Below, one piece after another: positions 9,596 to 21,933 of a DNA stretch of 21,933 nt. Made by a program: the position numbers and the translations under genes. Below the pieces are notes generated by a model. The model was not told where the DNA came from, ran no database searches, and saw only the letters and a program-made list of their open reading frames with translations. Where the stretch lies: NCBI GenBank assembly GCA_023150835.1, contig JAKLKB010000122.1, positions 1 to 21,933 on the forward strand, written 5' to 3'. Source of the stretch: Myxococcota bacterium. Lineage in GTDB: Bacteria; Myxococcota_C; UBA6777. The number at the start of each line of letters is the position of its first letter. Position 1 is the stretch's first letter.

Positions 9596-10313
9596 GGCTG
9601 GACTCGATCGGTGGCTGGGCAGAGCGCGCTGGGTGAATTTCGAGGTTTTGGGCGGTGGCCGGCTTGTTTGAACGGGCGGCCTCATCGGGCCAAGGCTCTT
9701 CGATCGGTGGCAAGACATGAAGCATCCGCTCGACGGTATCGCGCATTTGGAGGCGTAGGTTTTCAAGGCGACCTGTGAGGTAATGATGCCCTGCGAGTGT
9801 GGGGGCGGCGACCACGAGACCTGCCGCAGTTGTCAACAGCGCTTGCCAGATCCCCGAAGATAGGGCGGCTGCGTTGACATTGGACATCCCTGCGCCTTGG
9901 AGACCAAAGAATAGCTGCACCATCCCAACCACCGTTCCCAAAAGGCCCAACAAGGGGGCGATCTGTGATATCAGCGCGAGCAGAGGCAGGTTGTGATCAT
10001 GTTGGCTTAGCTCTAACATCCCGACACGTTGGGCTTCCGCAGCCACTCGATCTGGGCGCGTTCTCGCAAGGCGCGCAGAGGCCGCAAGGATCCGTGCAAC
10101 AGGATGGTCGATCTTTTCTGCCGCTTCGGCGGCTTCGTTGTAGTGCATCGCTCCGATCCGTTGCAAGAGCGGATCGACCCAAGGCAGGCGGTTTGCGCGG
10201 ATCTTTCGATACAGCCAAAGCCGCTGTCCAAAGATCGTGAGCGCAAGCACCGAACACAGGTAGATCGGCCACATCGCCCATCCGCCTTGCGCCAAAAGGT
10301 TTGCTACCGTCAT
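9588..10313 (-). CDS. exbB: ExbB/TolQ/MotA proton channel protein
   Basis: 241 aa from the ATG at 10313; an upstream extension to 10442 would be encoded by a dispersed repeat and is rejected. Three membrane helices are visible: about 12-34, 107-135 (APLLGLLGTVVGMVQLF) and 150-180 (GIWQALLTTAAGLVVAAPTLAG). The last two are the canonical ExbB/TolQ pore helices. A cytoplasmic segment (~40-105) lies between helices 1 and 2. With ExbD it forms the inner-membrane motor that energises TonB. It is the first gene of exbB-exbD-tonB. The ~25-residue Pro/Ser-rich C-terminal tail is longer than usual. No strong -35/-10 pair is obvious upstream. Confidence 0.93.
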   Translation of the reverse strand: MTVANLLAQGGWAMWPIYLCSVLALTIFGQRLWLYRKIRANRLPWVDPLLQRIGAMHYNEAAEAAEKIDHPVARILAASARLARTRPDRVAAEAQRVGMLELSQHDHNLPLLALISQIAPLLGLLGTVVGMVQLFFGLQGAGMSNVNAAALSSGIWQALLTTAAGLVVAAPTLAGHHYLTGRLENLRLQMRDTVERMLHVLPPIEEPWPDEAARSNKPATAQNLEIHPARSAQPPIESSHV

Positions 10314-10372
10314 CGCCAAAATCTTTCTTTCTGTAGGTGTCGCTTCGTGTGGGTATCGCTTGTTCGGAGTAT

Positions 10373-10500
10373 GTTGTGGGGCTTTGCCCCACGCCCCACA
10401 AGGGAGCGCGGCCCCCTTGACCCCGTGAGGGGCGGGAAGCACAGACGTTGTTCAAACCAACGACGGCTCCGCTTGAAAGTCCGCGAACACGGGATTTGTT
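10373..10500 (+). repeat. Dispersed intergenic repeat, copy 1 (full length)
   Basis: This copy starts with a 28-bp hairpin unit (GTGGGGCTTTGCCCCAC core) and continues with CCCCTTGACCCC, a GGCGGG block, TTCAAAC, CGCTTGAA and CGCGAACACGGG. The same order is found at 18958-19095 and, without the 28-bp part, at 16692-16779. All three are in the same orientation and lie between genes. TTCAA/TTGAA and CCCC/GGGG pairs could form a folded RNA or DNA structure. No coding capacity is seen. Confidence 0.8.
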
Positions 10501-16779: not shown

Positions 16780-18819
16780 TTAGCTGTAGAGGGCTTCTTG
16801 GAGGCGGGTGGAGTAATCGAGCAATGTTTCGTAGGGGGCGAGGTTGAGCAGCCGCTCGCACAATCCGTCGAGGGTGTGTCGCATCGAGAAAAGGGCAGGA
16901 TCGCTGTGGCAATTCAGGATCTTGAAATGGTTGCGCATTCGTTGCCACAGGACGCGCCAGACTTCGGGCTGTAGCACACCGTGTGCCTGTGGATCGAGCA
17001 GCATCCCATTCAACAAACGACCCGCCTTTCGCAAGTGCAAAAAGGTTCCCATGGTACGAGCGCTCTGCGTCAACCTACGCTTTACCGTGTGTGCTTTTTG
17101 TTCGCCCCAAAAAAGCAGTAAGAGCCTATCTTCCGCCGACAACGGATCGGATGAAACCGCTTGGTCCGAAAAAGACAGACAAGAAAGCGCATAGCGCCAA
17201 TTCAGCGCCCGCAGAGAAGAAGGGCGAAAATTCAGCAGCAATGTTTCCACGCGGGGAATGAAGATCGAGGCTGCGTAGCCCATCTCTTCCACCACCGTCG
17301 ACGGGTAGAAAAGCAAGGGGTCGTGGGCATCCGTTGGCCCGAATAGTCGTCGCGGCTGGTCTCGAAACAAGCGCTCCATCCATTCGGCACACAAGGGGCT
17401 TTTCAAACAAGCCAGACTCCACAAGGTCTCCCACGTCGGCTCGGCTTCTTTGGGCAGCAGCCAGATATAGGTTTCGAGCGATTCCAACATCTCGACGACT
17501 CCACCGCATCCGACGGTGAGGAGCAGTCTGTTGAGCCATGCTTCGTTGTTTTGCTGTCGCGCCCACCGCCACAAAGGTTCGAATCCCTCTGGATGGCGTT
17601 GTGCATCCATCAACAATGCCTTGAACGCCTCTTCTTCTTCCACGCGATCTTGTTTGTGCAAGATCGACCACAAAAATCCGCGTATCTTGTCGTTTGCACA
17701 CGACGCCATCGGCAAAAACAGATGTCGGCGAAAGGCATCATACGCATGATGGTGGGCTTGTTTGTAGAGTTCTTCGCACTCAGGCAGCGAAAGCCCTTGC
17801 CAATGCGACAAAGCCATCGCTGCACAAGTGGATGTCTTGCCATCGGTATGCTCCAAACGCTGCAACATCCGATGCAACTGTTCTTTGTCGAGGGCTGTCG
17901 GTTCGATCTCAGCGAGGGCTTGTACAGCCATCGGCCAAAGCTCAGGTAGCGGTCCTTCGAGCGCATCGATCCATCGGTCCACCAGTTCGCCTCCCGCGCT
18001 ACCCAAGCTGCCCAACAGGCCATACAAACCTTCCCATGCTTCGCATTCCTTGCGGTTTTTTTGGCTTCGCACAGGGATCTGTTGGCCTAGGCGCACAAAA
18101 GCCGCCTCAAGCAACGCAGGCGCACGAAGGGATTCTTGATCAATGACACCCCGTAAGGTCGCTTCTTGGAGTCCGAATGGCAGGTCTTCTTGCAAACATT
18201 CGCCCAACACTTCGATGGCTTGGGGATGATCGACTCTTGCGATCTGGTGCAATATCTCGCTGCGGATGCGTACCGCTGTTTGTGTACCCAATGCTTCTTT
18301 CATCAACGGCAATGCTTCACGCCATCTCCGATCAACGGGATGAGATACGTCTGTGGGTACTCGCGCAACCATCGCCCCTTGCCTGACTTGTAGCTGTTCT
18401 AAAGTCCATGCGGTCGCTTGGATTTGGGCTTGCTGCTTTTGAAGCTGAAGCATCAGCAGGATCGCTGCATTGTTGCGATGTTTGCCTTTCGCAGACAAAA
18501 AGCGTGCAAAGGGCGAAGTGCCTTCGTTGTCGGGATGAGGGCCTTCTTGCTCCCATCCTTGCCAATCCTGCGCACCTGCTCGACGCAGCCATCCGACGGG
18601 TTCTTCCAATCCTTGCGGATCGAGGTGCGCCAAGCTCCTCACCAACGCCGTCGGTTCGATATCTTTGTCTTCCATCAGTTCCGCCCACGCCCGTTTTTGC
18701 GAGGACGTCCACGCCCCTCCTGCCGCAAGATACCGCTCCAACAACAGCGGAAACGCTCGCGGTGCGATGTCTGGCACTCCCTCCAACAGCCTCCACCGAA
18801 ACGATGCCCAAGCTTCCAT
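16780..18819 (-). CDS. Uncharacterised 679-aa helical-repeat-like protein
   Basis: 679 aa. ATG 18819 has a strong ribosome-binding site (GGAGGG, 7 nt upstream). I do not recognise a family. The sequence is almost entirely predicted alpha-helical, rich in Leu, Glu, Ala and Trp. Recurring helix-pair patterns (for example AVRIRSEILHQIARVDHPQAIEV; LWPMAVQALAEIEPTAL; ALLMDAQRHPEGFEPLWRWA) suggest a HEAT/ARM-like solenoid used for protein contacts. There is no signal peptide, membrane segment or catalytic motif. Ten or so Cys residues are scattered without metal-site spacing. It is alone on its strand, convergent with secA and divergent from the receptor kinase gene. Codons are mainly G-ending on the minus strand, the opposite of the other minus-strand genes here. 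Confidence 0.8.
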   Translation of the reverse strand: MEAWASFRWRLLEGVPDIAPRAFPLLLERYLAAGGAWTSSQKRAWAELMEDKDIEPTALVRSLAHLDPQGLEEPVGWLRRAGAQDWQGWEQEGPHPDNEGTSPFARFLSAKGKHRNNAAILLMLQLQKQQAQIQATAWTLEQLQVRQGAMVARVPTDVSHPVDRRWREALPLMKEALGTQTAVRIRSEILHQIARVDHPQAIEVLGECLQEDLPFGLQEATLRGVIDQESLRAPALLEAAFVRLGQQIPVRSQKNRKECEAWEGLYGLLGSLGSAGGELVDRWIDALEGPLPELWPMAVQALAEIEPTALDKEQLHRMLQRLEHTDGKTSTCAAMALSHWQGLSLPECEELYKQAHHHAYDAFRRHLFLPMASCANDKIRGFLWSILHKQDRVEEEEAFKALLMDAQRHPEGFEPLWRWARQQNNEAWLNRLLLTVGCGGVVEMLESLETYIWLLPKEAEPTWETLWSLACLKSPLCAEWMERLFRDQPRRLFGPTDAHDPLLFYPSTVVEEMGYAASIFIPRVETLLLNFRPSSLRALNWRYALSCLSFSDQAVSSDPLSAEDRLLLLFWGEQKAHTVKRRLTQSARTMGTFLHLRKAGRLLNGMLLDPQAHGVLQPEVWRVLWQRMRNHFKILNCHSDPALFSMRHTLDGLCERLLNLAPYETLLDYSTRLQEALYS

Positions 18820-18845
18820 CTTTCACCCTCCATTTGTCGCACAAT

Positions 18846-18985
18846 GTTGTGGGGTTCCACTCCACGCTCTGTCGTTGTGGGGTTCCATCTCACGCTCCAT
18901 AGCTGTGGGGTTCCACTCCACGCTCTGTCGTTGTGGGGTTCCACCTCACGCTCCATAGTTGTGGGGTTCCACCCCACGCCCCGCA
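18846..18985. repeat. Five contiguous 28-bp tandem repeats with alternating A/B units
   Basis: Units start at 18846, 18874, 18902, 18930 and 18958, exactly 28 bp apart with no spacer. Units 1 and 3 share the ending CACGCTCTGTC; units 2 and 4 share CACGCTCCATA; unit 5 ends CACGCCCCGCA and is the head of dispersed repeat copy 3. Each carries a GTGGGG-TTCCA-CCCCAC-type stem, perfect in unit 5 and wobble-paired in the others. The A/B alternation indicates a 56-bp duplication. It lies 27 bp upstream of the 679-aa protein's ATG. Confidence 0.92.
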
Positions 18986-19150: not shown

Positions 19151-19238
19151 AGATCAGAACGTGCCTACAGATTCAGACCCGTGTTGTTAAGGGGGAAAAC
19201 CTCGGGTGTTGAGGCAAAAAACGCAATGGAGGACAGTC

Positions 19239-21509
19239 GTGGAGAAAAAAGGACTGATGGAAGAATTAGAGCAGTTGGGCAAGCTGCACCAAGCAGGTGT
19301 GCTTTCGGCTGCGGAGTTCGAGGCCGAGAAAACGGGGATCTTGTCGCGATTGCGTGCGTTGCGAGAAAAGAGCCATCCCGCAGGCGAGAGCAGCGGTGTT
19401 CACGGCGGAGATGCTTTTCGGACGGGTGCTGCGGAGGTTCAGCCAGCAAGAACACCTGCACCGTTGTTTTCTCCCGACCCAGCGGGATCAGGGGTTTGTG
19501 GGGTGATCGGGGAGCGGTATCGATTGGTGAGGATGCTCGGTCGGGGCGGCATGGGTGAAGTGTGGTTGGTCGAAAACTTCCGATTGGCGCGAGTTTTTGC
19601 GCTGAAGTTTCTGGCAAGTGAATTGGTGGGATCGTCGGAAGCTTTAGCGCGGATGCATCGAGAATACGAAGTGCTTGAAAAGTTGTCGCACCCAAATATC
19701 GTGCGCGTGTTCGATATGGATCAAGACAAAGAGAGCAGCCGGTGGTATCTGCGGATGGAATATGTGGAAGGCGAAGACTTGGGGAAAAAAATCGCTTTGG
19801 CTTCGAAACAAGGGCAGAAGCCGTTGTTTGCGATGCAGCAGATCGTGGGTTGGTTGGGGCAACTTGCAGAGGCGCTGGATTATGCCCATCAGCGGGGGAT
19901 CTTGCATCGCGATATCAAACCCGCGAATCTGATGCTTACAGCCGATCAGCATCTAAAAGTGATGGACTTTGGGATCGCACGCGTCGTCAGTGGAACGCAT
20001 ACGACCCAACACACCGCGATGATGGGGTCGATGTATTACACCGCCCCTGAGTTGCTGCGTGGTCAAGCAGCCACCCCGTCAACGGATATCTATTCGTTTG
20101 GCGTGTTGGTGTACGAGCTGCTAACGGGCAATTTGCCTGTGGGACGGTTTGCACTGCCATCTTCGTTGGTGGCGGGGTTGCCGAAGCGTGTCGATGATGC
20201 TGTCGAACGAATGTTGATGATGGAGCCTAAACAGCGGGGAGAATCGCTGCGCGAAGTGTGGTTGCCTTTGCGGGACGCGCTTGGTGGACAGCCCACGCAA
20301 TCCGTTGTTCTGCAAAAAACAGATCCACCACCGACGAAGACGGAGGCGACTACGCCGCCACCCGCGAAGCCGACGCTCGGGAAGAAAGGGGTGGTAGAGG
20401 AAAAGTCGGAAGAGAAAAAGAATCGGGAACTTGCGGAGGAGCGACGCGAAGCGAATGCCTCGCAAGAGCGCACGGGGCGGAAAAAGAGCGGCTGGGGGCG
20501 GTGGGTGGCTGCGTTCGTGGTGTTGGGGTTATGTGGCTGGGGCGTGGTGTGGGGTGTGGGCGTGTACCAAGAAGCGCAAAGACGGGAAGAAGCGCAAAGA
20601 CGGGAAGAAGCGCAAAGACGGGAAGAAGCGCAAAGACGGGAAGAAGCGCAAAGACGGCAACGAAATTCGCGGAGTGATGGCAAGGTCAAGCGTGTGTTTC
20701 AAATCGGGGATGCGGAGTACAAGACGCGATGGATTCCAGCAGGGGAATTTGTGATGGGGAGTCCGTCGAATGAGCCGAATCGAAGCTCAAACGAAGGGCC
20801 ACAGCGGACGGTGCGGATCAGTGAGGGATATTGGATGATGGAGAACGAAGTGACGCAGGGGCAATGGAAAGCAGTGATGGGAGCGGCGAATAACCCACCG
20901 AGTTTTTCATCGTGTGGGGACAAGTGCCCGATGGAAAGCGTGTCGTGGCATCAAGCCGCAGCGTATGCGAACAAGCTGTCGAAGAAGCAAGGCGTGGAAG
21001 AGTGCTTTACGTGTCGTGGCGAGGGAAAGGGCATACGGTGTGACGGATTGGGAAACAAGGGGAGAGATTATGTGAAGTGCAAGGGATGGAGGTTGCCAAC
21101 CGAGGCGGAGTGGGAATACGCAGCGCGAGCAGGAACAACGAAGGCGTATCACACAGGGGATTGTATCTCGGCAGCACAAGCGAACTACAACGGGAACTAC
21201 CCCGAAACGAATTGCGAGAAGGGAGAGTACCGGAAACAGACGATAGAGGTGTGCGGCTTGGTGCGGAACGCATGGGGGTTGTGCGATATGCACGGAAATG
21301 TGTGGGAGTGGGTGTATGATGGGTACAAGGACACAGCCTATCAGGAGCTAGGAGCCGTTGATCCAGTCTACGTAGCAGCGGCGTCGTACCGCGTCTTACG
21401 GGGCGGTAGTTGGTACTACTACGCGCAGTTCTTGCGGTCAGCGTATCGCTCCTGGTTCGCGCCTACGGACGCCAGCAACTTTCTCGGTTTTCGGTTGCTC
21501 AGGCATTGA
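19239..21509 (+). CDS. Receptor-like SHOCT-Ser/Thr kinase-TM-SUMF1 (FGE-sulfatase) protein
   Basis: 756 aa from GTG 19239, chosen for GGAGG 6 nt upstream; ATG 19257 and GTG 19206 are alternatives. Domains in order: a SHOCT-like helix pair (ELEQLGKLHQAGVLSAAEFE, 9-28); a Ser/Thr kinase (~94-350) with GRGGMGEV (101-108), Lys123, HRDIKPAN (223-230), DFGIAR (243-248) and YYTAPE (266-271), all catalytic residues kept; a charged linker; one membrane helix (~421-443) after RKK; an EAQRRE array (446-472); and an FGE-sulfatase domain (~490-756) with IPAGEFVMGS, WRLPTEAEWEYAARAG, MHGNVWEW and RGGSW...LGFR. A Cys-rich insert (560-615) is present. Positive-inside topology puts the kinase in the cytoplasm and the SUMF1 domain outside. 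It is probably a ligand-sensing domain rather than an active formylglycine enzyme. The last ~35 codons resemble a DGR variable region. No partner gene is seen. Confidence 0.93.
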   Translation: MEKKGLMEELEQLGKLHQAGVLSAAEFEAEKTGILSRLRALREKSHPAGESSGVHGGDAFRTGAAEVQPARTPAPLFSPDPAGSGVCGVIGERYRLVRMLGRGGMGEVWLVENFRLARVFALKFLASELVGSSEALARMHREYEVLEKLSHPNIVRVFDMDQDKESSRWYLRMEYVEGEDLGKKIALASKQGQKPLFAMQQIVGWLGQLAEALDYAHQRGILHRDIKPANLMLTADQHLKVMDFGIARVVSGTHTTQHTAMMGSMYYTAPELLRGQAATPSTDIYSFGVLVYELLTGNLPVGRFALPSSLVAGLPKRVDDAVERMLMMEPKQRGESLREVWLPLRDALGGQPTQSVVLQKTDPPPTKTEATTPPPAKPTLGKKGVVEEKSEEKKNRELAEERREANASQERTGRKKSGWGRWVAAFVVLGLCGWGVVWGVGVYQEAQRREEAQRREEAQRREEAQRREEAQRRQRNSRSDGKVKRVFQIGDAEYKTRWIPAGEFVMGSPSNEPNRSSNEGPQRTVRISEGYWMMENEVTQGQWKAVMGAANNPPSFSSCGDKCPMESVSWHQAAAYANKLSKKQGVEECFTCRGEGKGIRCDGLGNKGRDYVKCKGWRLPTEAEWEYAARAGTTKAYHTGDCISAAQANYNGNYPETNCEKGEYRKQTIEVCGLVRNAWGLCDMHGNVWEWVYDGYKDTAYQELGAVDPVYVAAASYRVLRGGSWYYYAQFLRSAYRSWFAPTDASNFLGFRLLRH
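20571..20657 (+). repeat. 18-bp tandem repeat in the juxtamembrane segment (EAQRRE)
   Basis: Units start at 20571, 20589, 20607, 20625 and 20643; they are identical at DNA level. They encode a strongly charged, probably helical segment directly after the membrane helix of the receptor kinase. Copy-number change would lengthen the stalk in frame. Confidence 0.92.
21399..21506 (+). other. Candidate DGR-type variable region at the 3' end of the receptor kinase gene
   Basis: The end of the SUMF1 domain keeps the usual frame RGGSW (721-725), LRSA (732-735) and LGFR (749-752). The 11 positions I take as usually Asn in DGR-diversified members (726, 727, 728, 731, 736, 738, 740, 744, 746, 747, 748) carry Y, Y, Y, F, Y, S, F, D, S, N, F. 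Their codons all end in C or T and are reachable from AAC/AAT by changing the first two bases. Both Ser codons here are TCC or AGC. The expected Asn positions are recalled family knowledge, not an alignment made here. No template repeat or reverse transcriptase is present in the window. Confidence 0.45.
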
Positions 21510-21764
21510 GGTTTGGCGTTTTACCGTTTCAGGGTTTGCGAGGACTTAGGGGATGGAAAGGGGAGGTGGTAGGGAAGAAGAAACGGAGCGAAGGCGGAGT
21601 AGCGCGAAGAAGCGAAGCCTGAAGCGCACGGAGACGGAGCGGAGCGGTCGGGGAAGGGGGGTTTGGGGGGGGGTCCCCCCCAAGCGGGCGGGAAACGGTG
21701 AAGTGATTGCGGACAGGCAGAGGGTTTGGGGGGAGAGATGCGGACAAGAAGGAGTGTGGGAAGG
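21510..21764. other. Purine-rich intergenic stretch, no gene seen
   Basis: The stretch after the receptor kinase stop is very G/A-rich and low in complexity (repeated GGAG, GAAG and CGGAG), with a GGGGGG-TCCCCCC palindrome near 21667-21679. Open frames in it are compositional and I support none. If the preceding gene is a DGR target, homing-related sequence could start here, but I cannot identify it. Confidence 0.5.
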
Positions 21765-21933
21765 TGATGACGAGTTTTTTGGGTGGTGTGGAGTACCAAA
21801 ATAGGTTGATGACAGGTTTTTTGGGTGGTGTGGAGTGCCAAAATAGGCTGATGACAAGTTCGTTTGGGTGGTGTGGAGTGCCAAAATAGGCTGACGACAG
21901 GTTTTTTGGGTGGTGTGGAGTGCCAAAATAGGC
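21765..21933. repeat. 42-bp tandem repeat array running off the window end
   Basis: Four units start at 21765, 21807, 21849 (43 bp) and 21892, reading TGATGACAGG, T-run, GGGTGGTGTGGAGTGCC, AAAATAGG. The last unit is complete at the window edge, so the array probably continues. Open frames through it on either strand have no start or domain evidence. Confidence 0.9.

Follow-up and report, generated by a model that had tools for sequence, protein, structure and literature searches.

The window, that is, the whole 21,933-nucleotide stretch of DNA that was analysed, makes up the whole of contig C62 in a 7.56 Mb genome assembled into 239 contigs and estimated to be 93% complete. Its last gene, at 19239..21509 on the forward strand, encodes a receptor kinase; a GTG start at 19239 follows a GGAGG motif, and the mechanically called open reading frame begins at 19206. 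The protein runs from a SHOCT-like N-terminus through a Ser/Thr kinase domain, a linker, a hydrophobic helix and an EAQRRE stalk to a C-terminal FGE domain, all features being given here on the forward strand. The kinase domain (19518..20141; residues 105-312 of the 19206 frame) matches PF00069 with an E value of 7.5e-50 and carries GRGGMG, HRDIKPAN, DFG and APE motifs, the P-loop, HRD and DFG of a Hanks-type Ser/Thr kinase thus all being present. A single hydrophobic, putative membrane helix (20493..20570; residues 430-455, Kyte-Doolittle 1.99), the only one in the protein by Kyte-Doolittle analysis, is followed by a charged stalk of short tandem EAQRRE repeats, read directly from the sequence (20571..20657), and by the FGE-sulfatase or C-type-lectin-fold domain (20730..21503; PF03781, E 4.2e-50). 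The layout of kinase, single membrane helix and FGE domain proposed in the first-pass annotation is thus confirmed by the Pfam matches, the hydropathy and the motifs. The same annotation placed an RGGSW...LRSA...LGFR frame at the end of this open kinase-FGE gene, where it does lie, but began the suspected variable region at 21399, and our comparison moves that start to 21387. Beyond the gene, the contig ends in tandem repeats of approximately 50 bp (21760-21933) which have relatives on contigs C90, C29 and C56; following the contig end through these repeats to the three contigs yielded no template-bearing neighbour.

The variable region (VR; 21387..21500, forward strand), at the 3' end of the gene, was delimited by comparing the window gene with a paralogue on contig C147 and placing their differences against the adenines of template repeats found on contigs C63 and C185. 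The FGE regions of the two paralogues share 83% DNA identity overall. Within the VR 25 of the 114 columns differ, at 15, eight and two first, second and third codon positions respectively, and outside it, over 314 aligned codons, the differences split 90/86/120. Adenines of the C63 template account for 21 of the 25 differences (Fisher 1.5e-10) and adenines of the C185 template for 22 (Fisher 1.2e-11); when codon position was held fixed, none of 100,000 permutations reached 21 adenine hits (mean 10.2). The variation is thus largely confined to template adenines, as judged from related templates rather than from the exact one. The observed variable columns span 21387-21483, followed by a constant end at about 21486-21500, and the non-adenine positions of the VR are almost identical between the paralogues, as is the 3' flank (21486..21538, forward strand), the expected place of the initiation-of-homing region, in which the alignment with C147 holds one difference (TGA/TAA). 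Immediately 3' of the window VR no prominent hairpin was seen (z 0.36). The codon argument with which the VR had first been proposed was weak, as the annotation itself said, and the paralogue comparison, a better test, gives an adenine-restricted result. A point on the other side is that these same columns fall on exposed residues, where ordinary selection could also produce variation.

The FGE domain was further examined at the level of its fold. Its AlphaFold model (pLDDT 87.9) has as its best PDB match the DGR variable protein TvpA of Treponema denticola (2y3c), over 251 residues with an rmsd of 2.1 A, a Z score of 33.6 and a Foldseek E value of 1.9e-21; TvpA is also the top PDB match by sequence, with the two VRs aligned to each other; the DGR proteins TaqVP (Z 14.1) and Mtd (Z 12.9) follow as more distant matches. 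On the predicted model, the VR is therefore carried on a C-type-lectin fold, of the same FGE subtype and in the same position as in TvpA. Ordinary FGE enzymes also match in fold, so this likeness is no proof of a DGR, and the comparison concerns the fold itself rather than the catalytic features of a formylglycine-generating enzyme. The two proteins differ in that TvpA is a surface lipoprotein without a kinase.

Searches of the genome contigs, on which all genome-wide statements here are based, recovered two DGR cassettes, both of them damaged. On C63 a bAvd gene (18677-18964, reverse strand; E 1.8e-14) adjoins a DGR-type reverse transcriptase (RT) gene bearing the IGNLTSQ motif (18662-17669, reverse strand), behind which lies a template repeat with AAC/AAT runs (17543-17668, reverse strand). 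On C185 the order is an HRDC gene (10304-10495; E 1e-17), an RT remnant and a second template repeat with AAC/AAT runs (9762-9870), so that an accessory gene accompanies RT and template at both loci. As assembled, both RT genes are frameshifted or truncated: in comparison with the C185 gene, that on C63 lacks approximately 17 nt immediately before MDD, and the C185 remnant starts just before YMDD, with everything upstream missing. Assembly error, recent decay, or an RT acting in trans from unassembled DNA are all possible accounts of this damage. The nearest relatives of the C63 RT are DGR RTs, 65 of 80 loci having a nearby template/variable repeat pair with adenine-only differences, in a scan of other genomes for near-repeats whose differences lie almost entirely at adenines, a scan from which the window's own records were left out. 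The first-pass annotation had looked to the rest of the genome for a near-copy with AAC/AAT codons beside a DGR RT, and held that the absence of any RT or template would speak against its proposal; two templates and two damaged DGR-type RTs were found, the C63 template lying behind bAvd and RT genes.

No further DGR RT was detected in this genome and none in four relatives, the motifs being judged by eye. On this basis the RTs on C183 and C85 were set aside as not DGR-type, as were all RTs of the four family members. The C85 gene (4353-6014) belongs to a set of proteins of 720-723 aa with two tandem RT domains, present in all five family genomes (the others being at G001:C386, G002:C709, G003:C35 and G004:C7), whilst the C183 RT domain (40847-41464) lies in a 904-aa open frame with a long, primase-like-looking C-terminal extension, similar to one on G002:C804. 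Just downstream of the C63 template, an FGE gene (C63:16252-16935) reads TGA where RGGSW has its Trp codon, and misread adenines in a TGG template codon cannot produce this change. In the sister species (genome G001) a C185-type template is retained (C506:444-538) with a short internal loss, and the HRDC and RT genes are absent upstream.

Neither template appears to have been copied directly into the window gene. Of 80 non-adenine sites, 18 separate its VR from the C63 template, the mismatch to the C185 template is larger still, and searches of the assembly brought up no closer match; neither is thus its direct template, and the backbone shared by C62 and C147 implies a third template class. 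A template-like sequence inferred from these two, which served solely as a search query, retrieved no third template from either this genome or the sister genome. As the assembly is 93% complete and in 239 contigs, the absence of the exact template is no proof that it does not exist; it is lost or unassembled. The difference in class also explains why both template repeats escaped a DNA search that used the unmodified window VR; they were found by reading the neighbourhoods of the RT genes together with the AAY pattern. No cassette is present on C62, in agreement with the earlier remark that neither template nor RT was visible there, and the machinery consequently worked either in trans or from a cassette lying past the end of the contig.

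Counting the window gene, this genome holds at least eleven targets, which together require at least three template classes: those of C63 and C185 and the third of C62 and C147. The further targets, at least nine in number, comprise four kinases (kinase-FGE proteins on C118, C120, C13 and C9), one caspase (caspase-FGE, C182), FGE-only proteins and fragments; on C99 and C211 the FGE domain alone was detected. C221' fits the C185 template (20 of 35 adenines and none of 79 other bases changed), as do C221 (13/35 and 1/79) and C118 (14/35 and 2/79), whilst C182 follows the C63 template (23/34 adenines, 3/80 others). C9, C211, C99, C120 and C13 also fit the templates, with more background. Between C182 and its orthologue in the sister species (G001:C12) the VR differs at 29 of 34 template adenines and at one of 80 other sites (p 8e-21), in genes with 93.6% identity in their upstream DNA. 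By comparison, three orthologue pairs of ordinary FGE proteins in these two genomes show 11, 8 and 2 differences, mostly at third codon positions. Adenine-restricted diversification thus occurs in this genus, as far as can be read from the sequences of this sibling target. Homologous variation spread beyond template adenines had been named beforehand as evidence against a DGR, and both the paralogues and the C182 pair instead proved adenine-restricted. The strain comparison that had been suggested was thus made across species with C182 and not with the window gene, for which no orthologue was identified in G001. FGE-sulfatase domain matches number about 50 in this genome and about 40 in the sister.

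Taken together, the adenine-restricted variation, the template repeats, the bAvd and HRDC genes, the RT remnants and the fold support the original proposal of a DGR variable region in a receptor kinase, and we are confident that the end of the FGE domain in the window gene is such a region. In the most likely mechanism, an error-prone DGR RT has copied a template repeat and misread its adenines, after which the mutagenized cDNA took the place of the 3' stretch of the FGE domain by mutagenic retrohoming; some 15 residues were so randomised on the presumed ligand face of the C-type-lectin fold, with the scaffold left constant. Of these steps, the retrohoming that rewrites the lectin-fold surface is supported by the sequence comparisons. 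As the lectin domain and the kinase are predicted to lie on opposite sides of one membrane helix, the diversified face would most plausibly serve as a sensor, in which binding on one side gates phosphorylation on the other; we infer the topology, the ligand sensing and the gating alike.

Within the DGR interpretation there is a question as to whether the window gene is now frozen, having been diversified in the past by RTs which have since decayed to leave a fixed repertoire. We consider this a serious possibility, if somewhat short of an even chance. Both RTs are broken in the assembly, no DGR RT is found in the four relatives, the C185-type template of the sister species has lost its HRDC and RT neighbours, and the VR-like lectin end of C128 and G001:C136 is nearly unchanged between species. 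However, C221' is still identical to the C185 template at each of the 79 non-adenine sites, and C182 has diverged from its orthologue at 29 of 34 adenine columns, which places homing as recent on the scale of the genus; the failure to find a third template points to gaps in the assembly where the DGR system is concerned, and in Thiohalocapsa PB-PSB1 broken loci exist alongside intact variants in the population (PMC10907252). A broader scenario, in which a few templates acting in trans have diversified kinase and caspase sensors dispersed across the genome, and in which the cassettes are decaying so that a fixed, germline-like receptor family is left, the last active cassette being unassembled or gone, is put forward tentatively and seems to us rather unlikely to hold in full.

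A DGR might be dispensed with altogether if this were an ordinary FGE-sulfatase C-terminus in which the family motif (RGGSW / RSA / GFR) had undergone the usual drift or selection. Many FGE proteins do carry the frame as a signature of the family, and FGE domain matches abound in this genome. Against this, the differences between C62 and C147 fall mainly on template adenines and include only two third codon positions among 25, the backbone outside those adenines and the 3' flank have hardly changed although the rest of the domain has diverged, and the ordinary FGE orthologue pairs look quite different, which together make this explanation very improbable. Exchange of the C62 and C147 3' ends by gene conversion followed by selection, with no mutagenic homing, would account for the near-identical flanks of otherwise diverged paralogues but leaves unexplained why the sites of change are the adenines of template repeats lying elsewhere, beside bAvd/RT and HRDC/RT genes, and it is the least credible of the alternatives.

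The diversified receptor kinase has precedents. Cyanobacterial DGR targets include kinases and orthocaspases joined to C-type-lectin domains, many of them remote, and ligand-gated kinases have been proposed among them (Vallota-Eastman et al., 2020, PMC7517822). As in this genome, the cyanobacterial proteins combine a kinase or caspase with a C-terminal lectin fold and a VR at the 3' end, and each genome holds many dispersed targets. They differ in lineage, in that no intact RT is seen here, and in that most are predicted to be cytosolic, whereas in the window protein a clear helix separates the kinase from the lectin domain. Thiohalocapsa PB-PSB1 resembles the present genome in its several template/variable repeat classes, incomplete loci, FGE-type and Pkinase-bearing targets, and targets without a template in the reference assembly (PMC10907252); its diversification has been observed in populations through metagenomes (PMC10907252), whereas the evidence here comes from comparing genomes.

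A membrane-spanning receptor kinase, a caspase and several more kinases thus extend the short list of cellular DGR targets resembling signalling or conflict sensors, in a host lineage with large genomes and few sequenced relatives. The system also offers a clean test case: two sister species hold orthologues of one target with VRs that diverge at almost nothing but template adenines, and the cassettes are in visible stages of decay. The size of the network, its membrane-spanning member and the decaying cassettes make the system worth following.

The bases found at the variable columns also differ between the paralogues. At template-adenine columns within 21387-21485, the window VR carries mostly T (15 T, 3 G) and that of C147 mostly G (1 T, 16 G; p 4e-6). 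The bias of the RT in BPP-1 depends on context (PMC12875486), and the T-rich and G-rich VRs may each reflect the base bias of an individual homing event or a history of selection.
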